Assembly (NCBI GenBank): GCA_947169045.1
Contig: CAMVOC010000006.1
Coordinates: 1 to 64,000, forward strand
Direction: 5' to 3'
Length of the DNA: 64,000 nucleotides
Source of the DNA: an uncultured bacterium
GTDB lineage: Bacteria > Patescibacteriota > Gracilibacteria > Absconditabacterales > Absconditicoccaceae
This document shows, piece by piece, positions 7,499 to 63,999 of the stretch. Under the pieces are notes generated by a model. That model saw nothing but the letters and a program-made list of their open reading frames with translations. It made no database searches and was not told the DNA's origin. Numbering within the stretch: the stretch's first letter is position 1; each line of letters opens with the position of its first letter. The translations under genes and the position numbers were made by a program.

Positions 7499-10400
7499 CT
7501 ATATTAGACCTTCTTTTTTCATATTTCCTTCTATCATTTCAAAAAGTTTTCCATATAATTTACTCTTATCAAGTTTTCCTTGCTCATTAGTGATATGTTC
7601 TAATGGTATTTTTCTGTCTTTTTCTCGAGATTTCCTATTGTTAACCTTAAAACTAAACTTTAACACGTATTGTTTCCCGTCTCGTTCTACAGAACTATTT
7701 TCAAACTGTGCCCGTTTTTTATCTCAAAATTTCTTGAAATAAGCCTCATGAGCTCCATCACTTGGTAATTTTCCTCCATAACGTTTAAAACGTTTTGAGT
7801 TTTTATCTTTCGATTCGTAGATTTCTTTTAATGAGTATTTCTCGTATTCAAAAATATGAGCTAATTCTCTATAATTATCCAATTTTGTTAAGATTTTAGT
7901 TGCTTCGGTTTCAAACATCTTACTTGCCTCTTTCGGATTCTTTGTTCCCCAATCATATCTATTCATATCGAATTGTTTCTTAACAGCTCGTGTGTTTTTT
8001 TTGTTGTTATCACGCAAACTTACTATGATATACGGATTTTCAAATGAGTAGCTCAAGTTTTCGAATTGACCCCCCAGCTTCATCATTACTTTACGCACCT
8101 CGTCTTTTATGAGGTTTTCCAAAGATTCTGGGAGCTTTTCTCCTTCTTTTCAGCTTTTTTTTGTATTTTCTTTTAGTTTTGCCTCCATAGCGTTTTTGAA
8201 GGATGTTTCGTTAAATTTTCCCTCTGCTACGTAGTTCCATATATCTAATTGTCCTCGTGTTTGTTCTTTTTTCAGTACTTTACATTGTCCGTTGGCATAC
8301 ATGGTAACCGTATATTCTGGGAACATTTCTTTTACTGTCTTTTCTATCTTATCACGTAGTTTCTTTCTTTTTTCTGTTTCATTTTGCTGAGGTTCTATAT
8401 CCTGGTCTGTAGAGGTTTGATCAGGGGCTTCTGGTGCCGTATCTCCTGCTGTTGCTACTGCTACGCCTGCACCTGTTGCCGCTGCTGTCGCTGTTACTCT
8501 CGGAGTAGCTGTTGCAGTAGTTGTTGCAGTAGTTGTACTTCTGTCTGCAGAATCATTTTGAGAAGCTGGGACTTCTGCGGTTACCTGATTTTCTTGAGGA
8601 GTTTCCTCTTCTTCATTGTCTGAAGATTGTTTAATCTGTACGGATGTTCCGTATTGCCAGAGCCAATTGAGATAATCGGCATATTCTTGTCCATGATCAT
8701 GGAGTTCTGGCGAAGCATCTCCCATTTTTCCTCGTAGATTCAGCGGTCCATCACTCAACATCTGAGTATCTAATCCCCACTCTGCAACATCTGTATCATC
8801 AAAATAGATTCCAAATCCCACTTTTCCTTTGAGGATAGTCTTCGCATTTCTATATGAAAATGGTTTATCAGATTTCGCTTCTGCTCGCTTATCTTTTGCG
8901 ATATTGATGATTCCATTAGAGAGATACGCAGCTGAGAATAATCCTTTGTATCCTCCTTTTCTAAATGGAATTACTACCTCATTTTGTACAAAATTTGGCA
9001 GTGTTTTCTCCTTTAGATCAATCTCTACCTGCACACTTTCACCGTTTTGTCTGGTATGAGACAGCATAAAGAGTTTTCCATCTCTTTCGTAAAATGACAA
9101 TCTAGGCTTATTGTCCTCTGGCATCGCATCATAAAAGGCTTTTAGTCAGTCTTTTACTTCTTTTTGTTTACTCTCTGAGAGGTCTTGAAAATACTCTAAT
9201 TCTTCAAGCTGGCTTGCTAAATCTCTTTTCTCGACATTTTCTTGTGCTTTGATGATTGCCTCTTCATCGGCTTCAAACATTCACTTTCTCTCCATTTGTT
9301 CGAAAGTTTCGTCTGATACCTCCTCTTTGATCAGATATTTATTGAGGATTTCAGAGGTATTTTTCTCCTTTTTGATTCTTTTTTTGTTTGCTTGTAGCCA
9401 ATTTTTCAGTTTATTATTGTTTTCTCCTAATCTATTCGTAATTTCTTCTCCGGTTAATTGCTTTTCTTCATCTGTTAATTTATCTCGATCGAGCCCAAAT
9501 TTTTTGAAGAACTCTCTCATATATTGCTCGATTTCCTGTTGTGTCGCAGTTTCTGGGAATGCTCTACCAAACGCTTCGATCGTTGGCATTGGAATTCCAT
9601 TTTTTTGCATATTTGCGTAGTTTATCCTACGTCGTGAGTCATATCCTCCGTCTGTAAGTATCATTTTTTGGAAATCTCCAATTCTTTGCGTCCCAATACA
9701 TGCAGCTGGAAGGTAGGATTCATTGATCCATGCTACTGTCTCTGGAGAGCTATCTCTTCCAAAGGTAATGAAATTACTCATATTTCTTTTGAGCTGTTCA
9801 AAATCCAATCCACCAGTTGCTACCTGCCCTAATAGCGTAAAAATATCTTTCCCTGTCAACGCGTTTGCAGCGAACATGGTACCTCCTACGATTCAGAGTT
9901 TTTTTCGAAATCCTCCTGTTTCTTTGCTTAACAACCAAGATCCTGCTTTATAGATTCCAAATCCTGATAGCGCTAAAAATCCTAGAGATGCTCGTGTATT
10001 TTTTTGTTGAGGAGTCATATTTGGGAAAGAATCCATAGCTTTTCTGATCGTACCTAAGATTCCTCCTCTTTCGAAGGCTTCGGTAAAATTTTTTCCTTCT
10101 GCTAAGGCGATATTTCCTACTCCCTGCACGACACCTGCTACTCCAGATTTATCGTTTTCGTATGCTTTACTTCGATCAACGTTTCCATATCTATTGTTAT
10201 TACCCATAAGTATTGCATTATTTCCTGCTGGATTAGAAAGATCGATGTATTGTTTAAATTCTCCGTTTTGATTGACGAAGGTCGCTCCGGTAAGAGGTAC
10301 TACGACTGGAGCATTTGGAGCATAAGGTCTTTCTTTTATCCTTTTGGAAATTCTATCTTCTGGAGTCGCATAGAGTTGAATATTCACGTCTCCGAGATTG

Positions 10401-10927
10401 GCATCGATTGCTTCGTTAATCTCTTGCAAAGCTCCATATGCCTCTAAATAATGCGTTCTTAAAATCTCCATATTTGGAGTATATCCCACGTCATCTGCGT
10501 GTTCGTAGTCGTTTTCTCGTTTATTGAGGTCAGCAATCCGATTTTTTGTCTTTTTAATAATTTCTTTTTGCTTGGTTTTATTGTCATCATCTTTGACCAT
10601 CCAATCAAAGGCTTTTTCGAGACAACCCTGATCAATTGCCTTTTTACTTAGTTCAAATTGTTCTATCAGTTCTCTCAATGCTTTTCTTCGCTCGGCAAAT
10701 GAAAATGGTTTGTGCGTCAAAATCCTCTCTTGCACACTTGCAACGACTTCTCTTTTCACTTCTTTGGTTTTGTGCGTCGTTTCTACATCGACTTTCAAGG
10801 CATCAACGTCTTTTGCCTCGTCTGTTAGGTTTTTGTCCATCGTTTCCGCTTCAATCTCTTTCTCCACTGCGGTATTTGGTGTAGAAGTGTTTTTTTCCTT
10901 TTCAATTGGATCGGTACTTGTTGACAT
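7499..10927 (-). CDS. Large protein of unknown function (1142 residues), pilin operon
   Basis: One frame runs from ATG 10927 to TAG 7499 when the TGA codons at 9893, 9281, ~9146, 8150 and 7724 are read as Gly. Residues 1-100 are charged and Thr/Glu/Lys-rich. Residues ~313-375 hold two hydrophobic segments (ASLGFLALSGFGIYKAG and GGTMFAANALTG). Residues ~380-780 are predicted globular. A Thr/Ala/Val low-complexity linker lies at ~790-850. Two Lys-rich domains follow to the end. I recognise no catalytic motif. It lies after the triple-pilin gene and before rnpA. A structural or assembly role in the same envelope machine is inference. No known family length is available for comparison. Confidence 0.75.
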
Positions 10928-11020
10928 GAGTCCACGAATATAGAATAAAAGTTTTCAAATTAAGTATACTTAAAATCGCTTCAAAAAAGAAAAAAAGCTG
11001 ATCAATCGACCAACTTTCTC

Positions 11021-11048
11021 TTGACTTTTTTAAAATTTTAGTTATAAT
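11021..11048 (+). promoter_or_regulatory. Orphan consensus promoter, antisense to the pilin-like gene
   Basis: TTGACT (11021-11026), 16 bases, TATAAT (11043-11048) on the plus strand. It points into the 3' end of the minus-strand gene at 11064-12002, and no plus-strand gene follows. Similar elements lie at 17473-17500 and 23150-23177. Confidence 0.5.
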
Positions 11049-11063
11049 TATATTTATGATTGT

Positions 11064-12002
11064 TTAGTTGATGAGCAATACGTTTGTGATGAGGTATCCT
11101 GCTCCGATAACTACGACTCCAATAGCTACATACAGAAGTGTATTTTTGATTTTTTTGGTCATATTTGGGTCGTCTGGCTTTGTCAGCATCATAAATGTCT
11201 GAAACATAATCAATATCAGCACTACCAATGCCGCAAATCCCATGATTCGGTTGATGATTTCGTAGAGCATTGGGATGCTTGAATTTTCGAAAATTGCCGT
11301 TCCGACCTCTCCCACGTTACTAGCTCCTTGGAATACTCTCTCTCTCGAACCAAACACTGATTCGACCAGCTGATTTGAGGATAAAATCACGAGAATTCCT
11401 ACCACGCTTCGCAGAATCATTCCTGCGGCTTTTTTCTTTGCTCCATCATCTTGTCCAGTTAAGAACTGAAATGCCTGAAAGAATAGAACAAAAAATAGTA
11501 TTCCCACCACCAAAAACATTGCAACATTGATGAGTGGCATCATCAGTAATTCGTAGAAATTTTCTGCAATACTTAGTCCAACGAATTGCGATCCTACGAT
11601 GACATCTTCCACTAACGTCAAGGATAGAAATTTAGCACTGACCATAATGATAATTCCAATCACTCCGAAGAGAATCAGCTTTCCTCCGCTTTTTATTTTT
11701 TCAGTATCTTGTGAACTCATGATTTTATAAGCTCAGAGGAACACTACGGAAACCCCTAAGGCTATTGCGATTGGTAGCATGATCTCTAGGAGATTGGTAA
11801 TGTACGTTCGCACTGCATCCGTCCCTTGCTCTGCCACCACAGTATCCCCTACTTTATCCTCAATTGATTCAATCGATCTGTCTAGCGCTGTATTTCTGTC
11901 TATCTCCAGCTGAGCCATCGTCACAGGAGCTAACATTCCCATACCTGTTATCAATACTCCGAGGATCGCTAGACATTTATGTAGTTTTTTTGTTCGTTTC
12001 AT
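11064..12002 (-). CDS. Membrane protein with three VirB2/TrbC-like pilin units
   Basis: This 312-residue protein begins with a signal peptide (basic start, then a hydrophobic run to VTMAQ near residue 30). Three related units follow at about residues 68-130, 150-215 and 245-310. Each has a hydrophobic helix, a polar turn with Ser/Thr, Gln/Lys/Pro, Asp and several Lys (SSQDTEKIK, TGQDDGAKKK, TKPDDPNMTKK), then a Gly/Ile/Val-rich second helix. This two-helix hairpin is the VirB2/TrbC pilin pattern, normally present once per protein. TGA at 11733-11735 gives Gly in the first unit. Its ATG overlaps the upstream stop (TAATG). Fusion of three pilin-like units is unusual. It could instead be a small channel subunit. 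Confidence 0.75.
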
Positions 12003-12349
12003 TAGTTCTGAGGAGATAAAATGGTAAAAAAATGACTAAAAAGAGAACGAAAAGGCTGATTCTGATCTAGTGTTTTGTGTTGTAAACACACTGCAATCTC
12101 TATGAAGATCAGTATACACATCCCAACGGAATATCCTGCACATACAGCCGTCAGAATAGTACTTGGTACCGCTGCTCTTATCAGGCATAGCACAAGCAAC
12201 AGCAGGAAGAATCAAACATTCCATTTCCCAAGTTTCGCATATCCTTGCACAAACTCTTCTTTATGCATGGTAAATAATCAGAAAAAGAGCAATGCTGAGA
12301 GCGCTTTGATTGTAATCACTGAAAATTGTTTCTTTTCTTCGTCCGTCAT
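12002..12349 (-). CDS. Small three-helix membrane protein, first gene of pilin operon
   Basis: This 115-residue protein is read with two TGA as Gly. It starts MTDEEKKQFSVI and has three hydrophobic stretches (residues ~13-28, ~45-62 and ~65-90) and a short polar tail. No family is recognised. It has the perfect promoter at 12384-12412 and its stop overlaps the start of the triple-pilin gene, so the two are almost certainly translated together. A plus-strand frame over the same region (12075-12404) has no promoter or membrane pattern and is rejected. Confidence 0.7.
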
Positions 12350-12383
12350 CAGCCTTTTTCTGAATAAAAGAGTATCTGAAGAA

Positions 12384-12412
12384 ATTATAGGGAAACGAAG
12401 GTGAAATGTCAA
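12384..12412 (-). promoter_or_regulatory. Perfect sigma-70 promoter of the pilin operon
   Basis: TTGACA (12412-12407), exactly 17 bases, TATAAT (12389-12384): a full consensus match on both boxes. The leader to the ATG at 12349 is about 28 bases and contains TCTTTTATTC, like other leaders in this window. Confidence 0.85.
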
Positions 12413-52920: not shown

Positions 52921-53007
52921 TTTTGTTGAAAAAATGAATATACTTTAATGAGGTACTAACAGAACTATTTTATCCTCTCAATTTATTTATCTTTGATTCT
53001 ACGTTCT

Positions 53008-55311
53008 ATGCATATTTTTCGTACTCCTTTACGATGATTCCTAAAAAAGCTTCTCCTTTTCAGCGTTTTTTTTCTTTTGGGGAATGTAGTGCTATTTGGT
53101 AATTTTTCAGGAACTTCACAAGTAGTAGCACAACAACCATTCCAAACTCTTACCTACCTTACCGATGATAATCTGCGTGAAAAAGTTATTGAAATGGATG
53201 GGATTGGAGCAACTTTGATCAATTTAGCAAACCTTATTCTCCGACCTCTTTTGGCAATTTGTGGTTGGGCAATGGATAATTCCATGGTGTATGGATCTGT
53301 GTTTTGATTTGATTCTGCCTTATGGACTCTGCGAAATCTTACTAAGAATCTTGCAAACTTTTTTTTGGCTTTTTTGTTTATTTATACGATTTTAAAATCA
53401 TTATTCTCTGGTAATAATAAGATTGGCTCCGAATTTAAAACTCTTATTACCAACACCTTGATTGCGGGGATTTTAATTCAAGCAAGCTGGTTTTTGACTT
53501 CAGCCGCAGTGGATCTCTCAACTATTGCGACCTATGGAGTAGGAGGACTTCCTATTACGATTTTAGGTTCTAGTTCGGATGAGAATCTTGACCTTGTCTA
53601 TTTTAATCATGAGCGCGTGATTAATTTTGAGCAACAGGGCGATTCTTTTATTCAAGATCTCCTTATTCTTCATACCAAAGATTGGAACATCTCTCCTTGT
53701 GCAACTACTAAAATCGAATGGATGACGGGCGGGAATAGCTATAGTGACAAAGTTATTCTTGGTAGAAAAGTTATAGCCTATCAAAGCCGTTTGGCTTGAA
53801 ACCAACGGACTGGCACTCAACCAGGACTTTGTCATGATTTTGGATATATTTATCGATTTCAAGAAGGATTCTTAGAAGAATTCTTAAATCCCTTACCAAC
53901 AATCGACGAAAAAGGACAAGATGATCGAAATACCGCAATTAAGGACGCTTCACGTGCAATCGGTGAGACAGGAAAGTCCGAGACCGGATATAACAATCTC
54001 ACTAACTTATTTAAAGCGGGAAAGATTCTTTTTTTGCCATGAGAGACTGGAGAATGACTTAGATCTCTAACACCACAAGAGTGATATGGAAGAGATCAGT
54101 GAAATGAACGTCTAAAAGGTGAAAATCAAACATTCCCTTTGCAAGATGTCATTAGTAATTCTCAATCTTATGTCTGAGTCATGACGACTATGTTTGCAAG
54201 CCTCTTAACTCTTCAAAAGGTATCTCTTGAAGGGCTTCCATCTAGCGAAACGAATAGTTTTGTCTCTTGCTTAAATACACTCCTTAATGTTTTTTACATC
54301 CTTGCATTACTTGTTCCGATCTTAGCTTTAGCCGTTGTCTTGGTTGTAAGAATTATCATTTTATGGGTACTTATTGCTATTTCTCCTATTTGGATTGTGC
54401 TTGTTGTCTTTAACAAAGAAGGGGTACTTTGAAAATTCAAAGACTATTTTTCTAAAAAGGAAGTTGTAGGCATTCTTTTTGCTCCGGTATTGATCACTTT
54501 TGCTGTAAGTCTTTCTACCGTGTTTATCTTTTTAGTGATGTCTACGAATTTAGCAGCCATTGATGCGGCAGAGAGTATGAATTTCCTATGATTGCGGACA
54601 ATATCTATTCAGTGAGTAGGAATTAAGGTCTCAAAAATTATATTCAGTCTCATAGGAATTGCTATTGTCCGGGCTTTGCTGTTTCGAGCTATTAAAGCTA
54701 CAAAAATCGGCAAGGAGATTTGAGGTTATATTGAAGATTTTACAACGGGCGTATTGGAAAATACCCGTTTTATCCCTTTCCCTGGTCTCAATGGTGGTGC
54801 TTCGATTAATATGATTACAGGAAATAATGGTATGATTAAACGTATAACACGTAATATTCCAGAGTCAATGAGAAAGGATAATTTACTAAATTTAAAAGGT
54901 TCCGGATTAGAGAACTTATTTAAAGACGAGATTGCGTGAACAGAGAGAGATATCCGTGACGATGCAATCAAAAACTATTTTAAAGCAACTGATTTTATCA
55001 ATAACGATTATGCGAATATTAAGAATAAGAAATATACAATAGAATATGATGAGGGTTGAATCAGGAATAGACCTGTTACCTTTACTCTTGAGGATCTTCC
55101 TCAGTTCTCCAAGAATGAAGAAGTTCAAAGCGCAATGAGTCAGATATTAACTCATAATGACGAGGTAACGTGGGATACAGATATCCTAGCAATATTTGAT
55201 ACTTACTTCGAAAACCGTGCAAAAGATGCAACTACAGACAAGGAGAAGAAACAGATTAAGGAGGAGAAAGAGCTTCTTGACAAAATAAAAAATAATCAAA
55301 AGTCCAATTAA
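53008..55311 (+). CDS. VirB6/TrbL-like polytopic membrane protein A
   Basis: A 767-residue protein with a signal-like start and about seven membrane helices. The block NSMVYGSVFGFDSALWTLRN and ILIQASWFLTSAAVDLSTIA is repeated in the next gene, and RIIILWVLIAISPIWIVLVV matches the VirB6/TrbL signature (R..x.W...a.SP.). VirB6-type proteins line the channel of type IV secretion systems. Between helices 3 and 4 lies a ~200-residue exported domain with conserved-looking Cys. The C-terminal ~170 residues are charged and cytoplasmic. At least twelve TGA codons are Gly. No VirB4, VirB8 or VirD4 is nearby, so the complete system is not shown. Confidence 0.8.
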
Positions 55312-55368
55312 TCTAGCTAATATCTCATCAGTTTTCTTTTATTTCTATTTACTTCCAACACTTCACCT

Positions 55369-57339
55369 ATGTGTTTCACTCAACATCTCAAAACATTTAT
55401 TCTCCTAGCGATTATTGCAGTTTTGGGATTTTGAAGTACTTTTGCCGGTAATGCAAACGAGACACTTATGACACATGCACAATTATTACAATTTTTCTTT
55501 AGTATTTTATCTTGGATCTGGATTATCCCTGCGTATTTTGCAGGGCAATTTCTAACAAATTCATGGGTATATGGAGCTGTGCTAGGCATGGATAGCTATC
55601 TCTGGACTTGCCGAAATTTAATGAAAAATATTGCTAATTTTGCACTAGCTTTTCTATTTGTCTTTTCGATTTTCAGGACGATATTCTCTAACGAAGAACT
55701 TACCTGAGTCGTTAAAGATCTCATGTTAAAGCTTTTGGTTGCTGGGATCGCTATCCAATCTAGCTGGTTTTTGATTTCTGCAACTATCGATGTATCAACT
55801 ATTGGAATGAGTGCCGTAGGAGCATTACCTTCTCATCTCATCTCTTCAAACTCCAAAATGTCAGGTCCTCTCCTTAATCCTAGTAAAACGATTCAAGCTA
55901 TTCATGCACAAATCTGTACATGAATTAATATGAGCCAAAGAAGCGATACCTGAAGCTATCTTCCTTCAATATTTACCAAACTGAAGATAGATCTCTTTCC
56001 GAAAAACGATCTTACCGCTCTCTCTACTCAGTCACTACAGTTATTTGATGTTGAGGCATTTAATACACAAGAAGCTTGTGATTCAAACAATAGTCAAAAT
56101 ACAGCAAAAGCTATTGATATTTTTATGCCCAATGCAAATAGTTTAGCGGGTCCTTTGATTTTTTTGGGTATTAGTATTTTTGATTCCTTTTCCGTTCCCG
56201 TTCCGGATTTAACCAAGCATCCAACTGCTCTCATTGGTAATATCCTCATCAATGGAGCAGGGATAGGATTGTACGCAATTACTATGATTCTCCTTTGTAT
56301 TTTTGCATTTCTAAGGATTGTGTATTTATGGATTTTTATTGCTTTAAGTCCGATTTTGATTTTATTGTTTTGCTTTAAATCTGTTGGAGGGAAAGCCAAA
56401 CTCCCATTTTTGGATAGCCTTACAAAATCACTTGAAGATCTTGGAATAGGTATATCCAGCATTTTATCACTTATTTTTAAACCAGTTTTTATTACATTAG
56501 CGGTCTCTGCTGTATTAATTTTTACGCTATTGATGCAGACTGTCATCCAAAAAAGTGCATCCACCTCTATTGCAGTAGTACCATGAACTCGTCTGGAATC
56601 TATCCCTGCAGAAGATACCAATGCTGATTGACAACCTTTATATCATACCTCCTTTGTCAACTCTACACTTTCTGTAACGTTTCAATATATGACTAAAACC
56701 TTCGCAGAATTGATCTTAATGGTTTTAACGCTTATTTTTATGCGATTTATTTTGAAACTAGCAATTACGAGTAAGACTGGTAATAAAAGGATTGATACAT
56801 TCATGACTGGTTGATTTAAGGCTGTTAAGGACGTATTAGGCAATATTCCTATTATTCCTCTTGGTAATGGTAAATTATTAAGTTATGATCTAGCTAGAGA
56901 GGCAGTAAGCAAGAAACTTGAAGAAAATGGTATTACCAATTATGTAAGCGATTTAAAGAGCGAGGGAGAAACTACTTTAAACAATTCAGGATTATTTGGT
57001 AAGAATGTAACTCTCACAAGTAAAGATGTTAGGAATCTTAAAAAGGCAAAAGATAATGTTTTATATGATCCGCAAGCATTTATTAAAGCTTCAAAGGAGC
57101 TTCATCATCTTCCAATTTTCACATCTCAAGAATGGAACAAGCTCTTTGAAGAGTGGATGAAAAACCTACCTGACGGTAGTGGTGATTCTAATATTCAGAC
57201 TTTAAAAGATAGTAAGTATACGACTTTAACAGCGATTCGGAAGGATAAGAATATAAGACAAGCATTTTGGAACCTTTTTGGTAATGGTGGAGTTGCTCGT
57301 GATACGATACCTAAAGAACCTCTTAACGTCTCATCCTAA
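55369..57339 (+). CDS. VirB6/TrbL-like polytopic membrane protein B
   Basis: A 656-residue paralogue of the preceding gene, 57 bases downstream. It shares LTNSWVYGAVLGMDSYLW, the TCRNLMKNIANF block, AIQSSWFLISATIDVST and RIVYLWIFIALSPILILLF. A signal peptide precedes residue 25 and a second exported loop with two Cys follows helix 3. About ten TGA codons are Gly. The C-terminal ~180 residues are charged. The pair probably arose by duplication. A bidirectional terminator follows at 57392. Confidence 0.8.
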
Positions 57340-57435: not shown

Positions 57436-60400
57436 TTACAGATTCTTGAAACAACGACGGACAATCTCTCCTTCACAGGAATTCAGTTGACCATATCGAA
57501 TCTCAGGTTTTCCTGATATAACCTGTCCACGAATTGCACGGTATTTTGTACTAGAATCTACAATATAACAGGTGTCTTCTATTACCGCATCCTCACTTCC
57601 TGGCATCAGTAATGTCTGCAATGGAGAACTGGCTATCGTACAGCTTCCTCCTGCACAGTACTCTAAGAATCCTAATGGACTCGTATGTACTGCTTGAGGA
57701 TATCCTGCTGGCAATGTTCATGCTCCTGATCGAATCGCGTTGAAGAGGTTCAACCAATCATTCTCACTCGGAGTATAATATCCTGCAGCACAAGTTGCAT
57801 TACTTCCTACAAATTGTTCCCATGGAGTTGGAAATTTTCCTTGCATCGTCGTCTCAATAGTTCCATCAATTGTGAGTTCAAAATATGGTTGATGTATTCA
57901 TGGATTGATATTTAAGAGTGGCAATCCTCTATTCTTATTCTCTAGCACGATTTCACATCCCTCATTGGCATTTCCTGTTGTACTTAAGATATGGATATCT
58001 CCCGTAGTTATGGTATATTTTGGGAATCATGTATATCGGATTGGACTCCAAGCTCCTCCTCCAGATGGTGTTGGATACGTGGTAACGTCTGTAATATATT
58101 TTGTATTTGCTGGACAAATATTCTCACATCTCTTGGTACTTGGATTTCGTTTCATATTGGATTTTGCACATTCAAACATACATATATTGTCTGCTGAGGT
58201 GTATGGATAACTCTGAATCTCTGCCCGCGTTAGCCCTGGATTTGTCCATGTTCCTGGGATATTTTGCGTTCCTCCATACTGATAACTTCCTGTCACTACC
58301 TTTATAGAAGAGCTTACATTATTGGTATTTCCTGTGTATTTATAATAGGTTGCGCCATCTTTTTCGAAGATAAATGTCGATTCTCCTATTCGTTGTACTG
58401 TAGAAGCGACTGTTCCATTAGGAAGGACACATTCTATAGCAACATTTGGTTTTACACAGTCACCATTCTCATCCTCTTCATATCCTGCTGCTTCATCACA
58501 GACTCACTCACAAATACCTACATAATTACCTGTTCCTTCAACTTCTTTCAATGATCCTGGAGATGAAGCTGAGGCAATAATTCCATATTCAAATAATTGC
58601 GTCATTAAGTTATTTCCCGTCAATACTCTATTCAAAATAGTAGGACGAGGAGGATATGCAGGAGTTGTATTAGGAGATGTAATGCTGATTGTTCGACGGT
58701 TTGGAGTCGTGCTACTATCTATTGTATACACTATTCCTGTTATTGTACCTGGTTTTCGTACCTTACCTGTTCCGTTCAAATTAGCACATCGCACTTGTTG
58801 AGGAGATTTTTCACAGGTTCTTACTCCTCCTTCTCCTATAAACAAATAATATCCGCTTGCTGTATTACATTCTCGTTCACATGTACCCGTTGCTTGAGCT
58901 AATTCTTCTGGAGTTGGCAAGTCGGATCCGTCGATATGATCCAGATTTCCTCCTGCTGTTTCTAATGCTTCATGTAAGGTTCAGAATCTAGCATTTCCAT
59001 TCCATGATTGACTTGGAGGAGGCGTGATCGCTGAGGTTGCGTCTCGTGTTGAATCCCAAATAGGATTTCCTCCTGGATTGTACGTTACGCTATATATCGT
59101 GTCGCTCTTGAACTTATATCCTTCATACAGTCCCATTTGAGCAAGTGAAGGACAAGTAACCGTCGTTGCATTGATACATTTTTTCTGATTATCATCTCGT
59201 ACCCATCCTTCTGCTGTATTACATGTAAATTGACATGGATAATCTGGGATTGGAGCATTTGGATCAGGAACAAATATCTTTTCTCTATTTAGACTTGTAT
59301 GCATATCGTACTTTGGAGATTCATTGGTCATTGCTGGTGTCGTGTATGGATTAGGTACTCGTTGTTCTCCTTCTCCTAACGGTCCACAAGATACAATATT
59401 TGGACAATATCCTTCAGCATTTGGTCTGGTGTTACCTGGACATTTTCGTGAACATTGTTTGTAATCTGAAGCATCCAATTGACAATAACTTGTATTTGAT
59501 CCTTCGAAATCCAATGGTCTTTCTCCTAGCAAAAGGCTACAGTCACATTCACATCTTTGCGTGGATGCATTTCGTGTTGTCCCTGGCTCACATTCACAGG
59601 TATTTTCTCCTTCATTATACAATTGATCTCCTAGACAGCGGAAAGCACATTGAAGTCCATGAGGATCTCCTGTGGTATCTTCACATCCTTCTAAGTACCT
59701 TGTTTGGTATCTTGTACCATCAGATTGAGGGTAAGTTACATTATCGGTTGGGATTCGTGTTCCCTCTACCCATTTTCTACTTCGGGCGAGAGATTTTGGC
59801 GATGATGTGGTTAATTGTCCTGCGGTACATCGTTTTGCTCCTTGTGCTGGTTTATCATCTACACAGGATTCATAATCACTAACACAAGTTCCTACTAATC
59901 CATCCAAACTTCATGATCGATGATATCCCTCATTACACGTAAATGCACATGGATTTGCACTCGCATTATCTGCGTATTGTGCACTATATGCTACAGCAGG
60001 AGTCCAATTTCCTAATGCTCCACTGTATATTTGTCTATAACGTAGATCTGGATTTGTAAGTATTCGTGATGCATATTCAGGTTTTTCTTCCTCTTTACAA
60101 GCACGGAAGTTTGAGATACAACCGGATGTTGTGTAATCATCTCCATCTATATTTTCATCCGCTCGATGGAATCCGGTAAGTGCTTCTTCGTTTTTACAGC
60201 GGAATGTACAGTAAGCATCTCCGGTATTATATCCTGTATTGGTATATACGTATTGTGGTGTAGGCACGGCAGGCACCCATTGTCCAGTTCGTGATACTCC
60301 ACTTCGGATCGCTGCATAACTTGGATCTCCACGTCCTGTATTAAAGACTGCGTTATCTGGGTTTCCTGGAATGAGGTTTTTATCACATAGTTTTACATTT

Positions 60401-63400
60401 GACATACAAGATTCGCCTTCCCAGTGTTTTTCAGAATCTACACAATCAAACGCACAATAGTCGTTATCATCTCCTGCGTATATGTGCGTAGTATTTTTTT
60501 CTGCTGGAATTCGCTCACCATTTTCATCGTTTCCACTTCGTAATTGTGCTACTCGACCCATTTTACCTGTATCTCCTGTCTGTCAGAGAGAGAAGGTTAC
60601 TCCTCTTCGGAACACTTCTGATGTGGATAGAGGCAATGGATCACAGAAATTCATATTATAAATACAATCTCCGTTTTCATTCTTTGCTGCCTGGAAGACG
60701 TTTCCTGTAGCTGTAGCGTCTCGGTGATATGTTGGTTTACATGTATAATCACAGGCTGCATATCCACAGGCACCTACTCCGAATCCTACAGGATTATAGG
60801 TAGGATTTGTCATATTGCTACCAAATGGAGATCGTCCTCCATTGATATAAATAATACGATCATCCAGCTCTGGCGAACAGTAATATCCCATACAATTATT
60901 TCCTCCATAGGCTACACAGTCACGATTAGGCTCAGGAAGCAACGCATGTAAAGGTCCAGGGAGAAAGTCTCATGCAATAGATCCCGTGGTAAATGCCGTA
61001 GGACAACTACCATTTCCTATTTCATTATAGAAGATAACTTCTCATCATAAAGAGGCGATGGCATACTTTCTATTCCCTATGTAATCCCTATTACCAAAGA
61101 GATATCCAAGCCCTCCTTCTGGTCTTTGAATGATTACTTCACCTCCTGGTTCATGTGGAGTGAAAATAATAATATCTCCTATTCATGGATTTTCTGGGTT
61201 CACGATGACAACACTTCCAATATTTGGTACCTCTAATTGATCTATCCATGAGGCTAATGAATTCCAAAACTCTATACTACAAGGACTTTTTTCTGGTGGT
61301 ATCTCATTGAGCGCGTTACTTATCTCCATTCGTATCGTCTTATTTTCTGCGCTAACGTTCTCGTCTGGAGCATTGAAATAAAACATAGATAGCTCTCTAA
61401 GGTAGTCTGTAATTGACTGCATTGCAGGCACTTCACCTACATTCGGTGCATAAAATCCTCACATATTTTGATCCCATCCTATTCCTAGTCTTCCGAGATA
61501 TTTTAGCGATTCATCTGGTCGTGTATTTGGATTTTCTGGGTCGCAAGGGGTCTCTTCTCCTCCGCTTTCTGGATCACAAGGTCCATCAGCTGGTTCAATG
61601 CTACATTTTATTGTTGCTTCTCCTGGACATTTACAACCCCATGCAGATATTCCAGACTCGTCAGGGTCCCCAACGACACTGAAATCTCCTTCTCAGACAC
61701 AAAGAGGATTTGGAAGCTGATTTGCTTCGATATTTTCACAAGTTACCGGCTGACATGACACTTCACATGGTACAGGATTTGCTGGGTCACAACTATTTGT
61801 CTCAGCATTTCGTATCTCGTCTTGTGTACAACAACTTGGATGACTATTTCCCATCATACAACAGAAGTACTCTGATCCTGGGGTGTCTGCATCCCCTTGT
61901 TTACCTCTACAAGGGTCGGTACAAATTTCTGGCACTGGATCTTTATCTGTAACCTCTCCACTTTCTGGATCACAGGTCTGACATTCTTCATCCCAGTCTT
62001 CATTTGCACAAGGGTCGCAACTTTCATGATTTCAACCCATCTTAGCATTGATACAACAGAAGAAATCTGATCCTTCATCATCGTTTCTCTCGAGTCCTTC
62101 TTCACAGATACATGCTATGGCAGCATTTCTTGCAGCTTGTTGCTGAGTTTCTTCTATTGCCGTCGTTATTGATTGTCTCCATTCTTGTCGTGGGATCCAT
62201 AATTCTCCTCAAATTGGGTTTTCTGAAAGAGCTGGGAGCTCTGCGAATCCTGCTCGATTTCGATTTTCTGGCAATCCTTCATCCGCTAGTTCTGTACAAG
62301 ATGATGGACGACAAGCCGGAGCGTTTGGATATAAGCAGCAGAAATCATTACATGATGGATTAAGACATTCTCCGTCACAATCTTTGAAACATCTTACCAT
62401 CATCTCAGTAGGGTCTACCACCTCTGCAGAAAGATATCGCGGATTATTTATATTCGTTCCTGTAATTTCAATGGATCCTGTCGCTCCTGAAGATCGATAG
62501 AATCCTTTAGGTAAATACAATCCGCTTCGCGTCTCGTTTCCATTCATCACTTCAGAAAAGTACGTTGATCAGAAGGCTATTCCTTCCATCTGATTATACG
62601 CTCCTGAAAATCCAAATCTTCCCCCTGCAACATCAAACAGACTTCTCCATTCTGCTAGCGTAGGGAGATGATATCCTGTACCACAAGCATCAACTGCTTG
62701 TGCCTTTGCTATTCCACTTCCTGCTTCCCATAAGTTTTCTGCTCCTACATTACAATCTTTGATAACAATTCCTCCGATGTTAAGATCTGAAGTACAAGCT
62801 CCCTCTGGTCTATTAGGATCTCTTCGTTTTGCTCGAAGATCCAAGTCTCCTCTACAAGTTCATTGTGCGATAGTAGAAATTGGAGATCCATTGAACCCTA
62901 AATTATCATATCGTCCCTCGAAGATCATTCCATCATACGCAGGGACAGAAAACACTATTGTTGGTCCATCTGCTGTATATTCTGTCGGTGTTGTATCTCC
63001 TTCACCTCCATTTAGATGGTAAGTGATGCTGTAGGTATTGGCTTTTCGTTGAGCATATAACATCGTGTCTCCTGTAGCCCCCGTGTAGGTATCTCCTCCT
63101 GATCCTATTCGGGTTCCTTCATTCGGAGCAGAATACCAACCTGAAAAGCTATAACATTCTCTCGTTGCTGTAGGAAGAGTCACGGAAGGGAGATATTCAT
63201 GGAAATCCCCTGTCAAAATTCCTATTTTCCCTACACGATAAATGTAGTAAGCTGGATTAGAGGTCCTTGCCATTAGAGCTCCTTGATTATTAAACAACCA
63301 TCCAGAGAATGTTTTGGTCAATTCTCGTCCTGTGTAAGGCACATTTGCAGGTTGGATCAGTCCTCAATTACCGTCTAGATCAATATTATATACTGGAGAA

Positions 63401-63999
63401 ACTGCTCTCACCTGTTCTCTTGTCCCTCCTGAACCCGTCCTTTCATCGCTACAATTATAGCTTCCATCTTTTTGGAGCTGGCAAATAATCACTTTCCCGT
63501 CATTTGTTGTGTTTTCTCTCCATCTCGCGTACCCTGTAGCGTTTGTAGTAGCGGAATATCTCGTATTAAACAAATATCTCTCACCTTCCTCTGCATCTGT
63601 GTATCGTCCAGACAATGAGAAACCAGCTTTTTCTACCTCTGTTGAAGAAGGTAAATCTCCTATTTCCTCCCCGTAGGTTACTACTTTCCCTGTCGCATTA
63701 AATGGTGGAATATTGTTTCCTCCTTGGATATCATAAGCCAGTCGGTATTTCTTAGCTGATCGGCAAGCGTATAAATACGTAGGATCTGTGCTAAGTGAAA
63801 GTGTTGATCCATTAACGTATTTTTCAGCACTTTGACAGGTAGGATCTGTATCTCGTCCATCAAAATCATGTCCTGTTAAACTAGGATTAACTACCGTTAG
63901 TGGGTCTCCATTTACAAAATCACCCAGCAACGTACATTCGTCTGTGTACGTCCATCGCTGAGCAGCAGGAAGTCCATCTCCTCCTATTGTAGCATTGTA
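57436..63999 (-). CDS. Giant Cys-rich surface protein with InlB-type repeats (C-terminal part)
   Basis: One open frame of 2187 residues runs to the window edge, so the N-terminus is missing. From N to C: Listeria-Bacteroides (InlB B) repeats (TYSITYHLNGG, FSGWYSAPNEG, KYxLAYDIQGG, ARW), a FISUMP-like domain (CGTGYHLPTLAEW), a Cys-rich region, then about eight Cys-rich modules of ~100-130 residues with C-A/T/D-F/Y-x-C (CAFTCNEGYHR, CTFRCKNEEAL, CQFTCNTAEGW), and a second FISUMP-like domain near the end (PSENDWLNLFN). More than a dozen TGA are Gly. CGA in YAQ-(CGA)-KANTY is at the conserved InlB Trp. No anchor motif at the C-terminus. Probably extracellular, disulfide-linked, for host or surface contact. 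Confidence 0.85.

Follow-up and report, generated by a model that had tools for sequence, protein, structure and literature searches.

A VirB4-linked protein of three fused VirB2-like hairpins conserved in Absconditabacterales

Introduction

The closest described counterparts of the locus analysed here are the MPF-FATA type IV secretion systems (T4SSs) of Patescibacteria, for which the main text of a published survey describes genes encoding VirB4, TrsD, PrgI-like, VirB6-like and VirB2-like proteins, the VirB2-like genes lying near virB4 (PMC12102498). According to the same text, in which the pilin profile used here was also applied, pilins are encoded in arrays of 2-11 separate genes, and VirB6 is reported to be absent in the class Gracilibacteria. 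T4SS genes are further reported, in work cited by the main text of the survey, to be essential for epibiotic growth of a cultivated Saccharibacterium. The pilins themselves are represented by the T4SS_pilin (PF18895) model and the model of the Mbov_0395-family pilin-like conjugal transfer protein (NF045849), each of which describes one hairpin (71 and 80 positions, respectively). For the R388 system, a model of pilus growth has been proposed in which VirB6 serves as the base and the VirB2 subunits are lifted by VirB4 (PMC9259494). VirB6/TrbL and archaeal CedA/TedA are polytopic membrane partners of VirB4, and work on archaeal CedA1/CedA has led to the proposal that VirB2 and VirB6 share an ancestor (PMC9905601).

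In this study, a window of 64,000 nucleotides (positions 1 to 64,000 of contig CAMVOC010000006.1) from an uncultured, very small bacterium of predatory type belonging to the Absconditicoccaceae (GCA_947169045.1; 873 kb in 13 contigs) was analysed. A first-pass annotation of this window had proposed a possible new envelope system comprising a small membrane protein, a protein of three VirB2-like hairpins and a protein of 1142 aa. The claim of a new system does not hold, since VirB4, TrsD, PrgI/VirB3, VirB6 and VirB2-like parts are already described in the main text of the survey (PMC12102498). The triple-hairpin protein, here called P0002, is probably a component of this known Patescibacteria T4SS in an apparently undescribed fused form: neither the fused triple protein nor the gene order VirB4-F2-triple was found in the main text of the survey, and no description of the fused form was found in the main texts of the freely readable literature searched.

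Results

The open reading frames (ORFs) were read in genetic code 25, under which the three annotated genes were recovered at their positions; reading in code 11 fragments all three. The perfect promoter noted upstream was likewise recovered as a sigma-70-type TTGACA-17-TATAAT sequence on the minus strand (12384..12412), matching at 12 of 12 positions, and the window contains two such 12/12 sites compared to 0.06 expected by chance. Because this promoter overlaps the TTG start that had been assumed for the small ORF, the start was moved to the ATG at 12349, so that the annotated small membrane protein keeps its ORF (12002..12349, minus strand) and its three hydrophobic segments but now has 115 aa. 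Its stop codon overlaps the start of the P0002 gene (TAATG), and the two genes are located between smpB and the gene for the 1142-aa protein. The small protein is a truncated homologue of F2, a polytopic protein of 308-345 aa often encoded between VirB4 and the triple pilin and missing at three deeper loci. The F2 profile matches residues 4-97 with an E value of 1.7e-9, compared to 0.12 for the best shuffled control; the C-terminal two thirds of F2 are missing, and the three N-terminal helices, which are those predicted best by AlphaFold2 in F2, are retained. The presence of a truncated F2 immediately before the triple gene suggests that the window holds the tail of a VirB4-F2-triple module.

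The 1142-aa protein (7499..10927, minus strand) had been placed in one operon with these two genes and considered a partner of the pilin. However, a hairpin followed by a U-run (10990..11021, minus strand; -20.8 kcal/mol, z -4.07), resembling an intrinsic terminator that would end the pilin transcript, lies between the pilin gene and the 1142-aa gene, and a sister species carries its own terminator, AAAAAGTCAAG...CTTGACTTTTTTTTTT, at the same place (L053). Although members of the 1142-aa family were detected by profile search in 27 of the 49 family genomes, the gene adjoins the triple pilin only in the source genome and the sister species (G036). The rare adjacency and the predicted terminators in both genomes argue for a separate gene, and the 1142-aa protein is judged from these sequence features to be a chance neighbour, so that neither the three-gene operon nor the proposed partnership is retained. 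The protein carries no signal sequence and no strong membrane segment, and Pfam, PHROGs, NCBIfam, PDB and profile searches returned nothing usable for it.

P0002 (312 aa; 11064..12002, minus strand) matches T4SS_pilin in three stretches (49.2 bits; curated cut-off, 26.6) and the Mbov_0395 pilin-like model with 47.8 bits (curated cut-off, 40), the latter score being the sum of three stretches. It shares the hairpin family and the Sec-type N-terminus with these single-hairpin models, but carries three hairpins in one chain. Hydropathy analysis revealed a hydrophobic N-terminus, inferred to be a Sec-type signal sequence (residues 1-30, hydrophobic at 7-25; 11913..12002, minus strand), and six further hydrophobic segments. 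In an AlphaFold2 model based on an alignment of 15 sequences, three helical hairpins were predicted at residues 61-96/100-135, 142-182/186-217 and 243-274/279-311, supporting the annotation of three VirB2-like units in one protein. With a pLDDT of about 70-75 within the hairpins, the folding of the units as hairpins is predicted at moderate confidence; their packing is unreliable, given a mean pLDDT of 58.7 and a pTM of 0.39. Foldseek searches with the models of the triple protein and F2 yielded no match with an E value below 0.2. Of the 17 aligned orthologues, all carry a PF18895 match and 8 also a TrbC/VirB2 match. Across 25 orthologues, the units are nearly constant in length (63-64, 66 and 68 residues) and the linkers vary (21-39 and 26-42). 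The linkers are acidic (net charge -2.4 and -2.7) and the hairpin loops carry charges of -1.3, +0.4 and +1.3, a weakly positive-inside pattern. Orthologues at five loci (L079, L080, L081, L083 and L086) possess a Cys-containing, repeated N-terminal ectodomain of ~400-590 aa followed by three hairpins.

In a tree of all units, unit 1 (residues 66-131; 11610..11807), unit 2 (residues 150-218; 11349..11555) and unit 3 (residues 243-311; 11070..11276), all on the minus strand, formed separate clades, each containing 25 of 25 sequences with a support of at least 0.96 (0.965, 0.967 and 0.983, respectively). These position-specific clades bear out the annotated fixed subunit order and suggest that the fusion is older than the sampled diversity, with the order of the units kept since. 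Unit 3 is nearest to the single-hairpin pilins (mean tree distance, 2.74, compared to 3.7 for each of the other two units). Judged from its sequence, P0002 is derived from VirB2-like pilins through fusion of three hairpins; because it holds three hairpins in 312 aa, it is better termed VirB2-derived than a VirB2 pilin.

Full-length orthologues of P0002 are present in 43 of the 49 family genomes, all 43 of which also encode VirB4 (PF19044; 46 of 49 genomes). In 35 of the 43, VirB4 is followed on its strand by the triple gene after a gap of 0.3-3.1 kb; among the remaining genomes, one has the genes in another order and seven have them on different contigs, some of which may reflect assembly breaks. 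In the source genome, VirB4 lies on another contig (C4, locus L060) and not beside P0002. The gene order across relatives supports a link of the triple gene to VirB4, but not to the 1142-aa gene. Since the gene stands beside VirB4 in most relatives, across ~20 genera, the triple protein in all likelihood functions within their presumed host-contact secretion machinery. Named loci were gathered through VirB4, as conservation along the triple-pilin profile is nowhere sufficient for scanning contigs, and the named relatives found in this way are records of candidate division SR1 / Absconditabacterales. The triple gene is present in 14 of the 17 best-matching named VirB4 loci; of the other three, two stop at VirB4. 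No full-length triple-pilin match was found in 63 VirB4 loci of other CPR bacteria, nor did the matches listed for 378 sampled genomes of the phylum outside the family include a full-length triple match in one frame.

Other families of the class carry pairs of triple-T4SS_pilin proteins (L224, L226, L227, L228 and L229), followed by pilin-PKD proteins of ~1,650 aa and PKD proteins of ~750 aa, suggesting that the triple-hairpin architecture is more widespread within the class. Like P0002, these proteins contain three T4SS_pilin stretches, a signal and six helices; in contrast to the Absconditabacterales form, they are tandem paralogues located by pilin-PKD/PKD proteins and near ribosomal genes (at several loci near nusG-rplK-rplA), and not by VirB4. 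The VirB4-linked triple form is typical of Absconditabacterales. The source genome also encodes a second three-hairpin VirB2-like protein of 298 aa beside a single pilin (L065:6550-7446, minus strand).

A piecewise search of the source genome for selected T4SS families identified VirB4 at L060:12311-14605, which scored 348.9 bits against NF045971 (CD1110 family; cut-off, 325) and whose family profile matches the solved VirB4-like structure 4ag5 (2e-56). TrsD (E 6e-9) and PrgI-like (E 1.9e-4) matches both fall below their cut-offs, curated in the case of TrsD, and a VirD4-like match was found that is weak. The genome also encodes several single-hairpin pilins, and its relatives have 4-15 pilin domains per genome. 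In agreement with the annotation of VirB6-like genes elsewhere in the window, a tandem at 52993-57339 on the plus strand encodes a VirB6/TrbL-like polytopic protein of 772 aa (52993..55311) and a second VirB6-like protein of 656 aa (55369..57339; BLASTP to the first, E 6e-28). The 772-aa protein matches a CPR VirB6-like profile, the member proteins of which match TrbL weakly, with an E value of 4e-8 (25.5 bits vs 17.9 in locally shuffled controls). The tandem has no Pfam match of its own. Relatives of the 772-aa protein occur in 44 of the 49 family genomes, and five of six TrbL hits fall in or beside its orthologues. By these profile matches, the 772-aa protein is likely part of the same T4SS as P0002, and the tandem is a divergent VirB6-like pair, in contrast to the absence of VirB6 reported for Gracilibacteria in the survey's main text (PMC12102498). 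The suggested connection to a T4SS-like channel is supported by these VirB6-like genes and by a VirB4 that adjoins the P0002 orthologue in most relatives. On the minus strand after VirB4 in the source genome (L060:8754-12200), a secreted protein of ~1148 aa is encoded, with a lipase-like alpha/beta-hydrolase and a sorting-type C-terminal domain; a homologue lies near VirB4 in the sister species (L097:9991-13416, plus strand).

Discussion

On balance, P0002 is probably a conserved T4SS component of Absconditabacterales that serves, together with VirB4 and F2, as a fused, non-polymerising membrane platform or base. P0002 would be inserted by Sec with its N-terminus outside and would remain uncleaved, placing the three hairpin loops in the cytoplasm and the two linkers outside, which corresponds to the VirB2 topology repeated three times. 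Rather than polymerising in the manner of a pilus subunit, it would most likely oligomerise in the cytoplasmic membrane as a fixed six-helix building block. By analogy with the growth of the R388 pilus (PMC9259494), P0002, VirB4 and F2 may form a base or membrane platform, possibly a ring, on which the single-hairpin pilins would be assembled or retracted at contact with a host cell. More tentatively, P0002 might represent a "frozen" pilus layer, in which VirB2-type subunits of fixed order form the static, membrane-held, VirB4-driven base of a host-contact pilus, in addition to VirB6 and not in its place. Against the platform reading stand the position of P0002 away from VirB4 in the source genome, the empty fold search, the poor model, the weakness of the positive-inside charge pattern of the loops and a possible proteolytic release of three single pilins. 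The platform role is, moreover, not vacant, since VirB6-like proteins are present.

P0002 could alternatively be a pilin polyprotein, cleaved or uncleaved, supplying subunits in the order 1-2-3 for a filament whose pattern recurs every three units. Its three VirB2-like units behind a Sec-type N-terminus, the distinct and conserved identities of the units and the variable linkers would all fit such a protein. However, the same genome encodes separate single-hairpin pilins, its relatives have multiple pilin domains each, and the linkers revealed no obvious conserved motif for cleavage, although the test for AxA signal-peptidase sites is too loose to decide. In addition, the N-terminal ectodomains of ~100-590 aa in several genera would be awkward in a packed filament; such long extracellular N-termini favour a membrane-anchored part, and we regard the polyprotein as rather doubtful. 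A replacement of VirB6 by P0002, as a polytopic pore made from fused VirB2 hairpins, would agree with its polytopic nature, with the position of its orthologues beside VirB4, with the proposed common origin of VirB2 and VirB6 (PMC9905601) and with the absence of VirB6 reported in the survey's main text (PMC12102498). This idea is weakened by the widespread VirB6-like tandem, in or beside which most TrbL hits fall, and P0002 shows no PF04610 (TrbL) match and no profile similarity to CPR VirB6 (hhalign probability 2.6 between the triple-pilin and CPR VirB6 profiles), which makes replacement unlikely.

It is quite improbable that P0002 is unrelated to secretion, a membrane protein that owes its place by VirB4 to history alone. 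Such a reading would fit the retention of the gene after loss of its VirB4 linkage here and in a few relatives, and the position of the triple-hairpin proteins elsewhere in the class beside PKD proteins, but a VirB2-family sequence combined with so strong a linkage to VirB4 speaks against it. Least of all do the data suit a two-gene envelope system of P0002 and the 1142-aa protein, possibly its substrate, which we consider very improbable, since the adjacency on which it builds is confined to the source and sister species, with a terminator between the genes in both, and the large protein has neither a signal sequence nor a family match.

With the platform reading preferred, a lineage-wide core protein of three fused VirB2 units offers a concrete handle on how these T4SSs are constructed. 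The duplication and fusion of hairpins are directly visible in P0002, which bears on the proposed shared origin of polytopic T4SS parts and pilins (PMC9905601). Furthermore, the VirB6-like tandem may explain the VirB6 gap that the survey's main text reports for related bacteria (PMC12102498). Next to this tandem, on the minus strand (57436-63999), lies an ORF of at least 2187 aa that extends beyond the window end and encodes a glycine-rich, surface-protein-like product.
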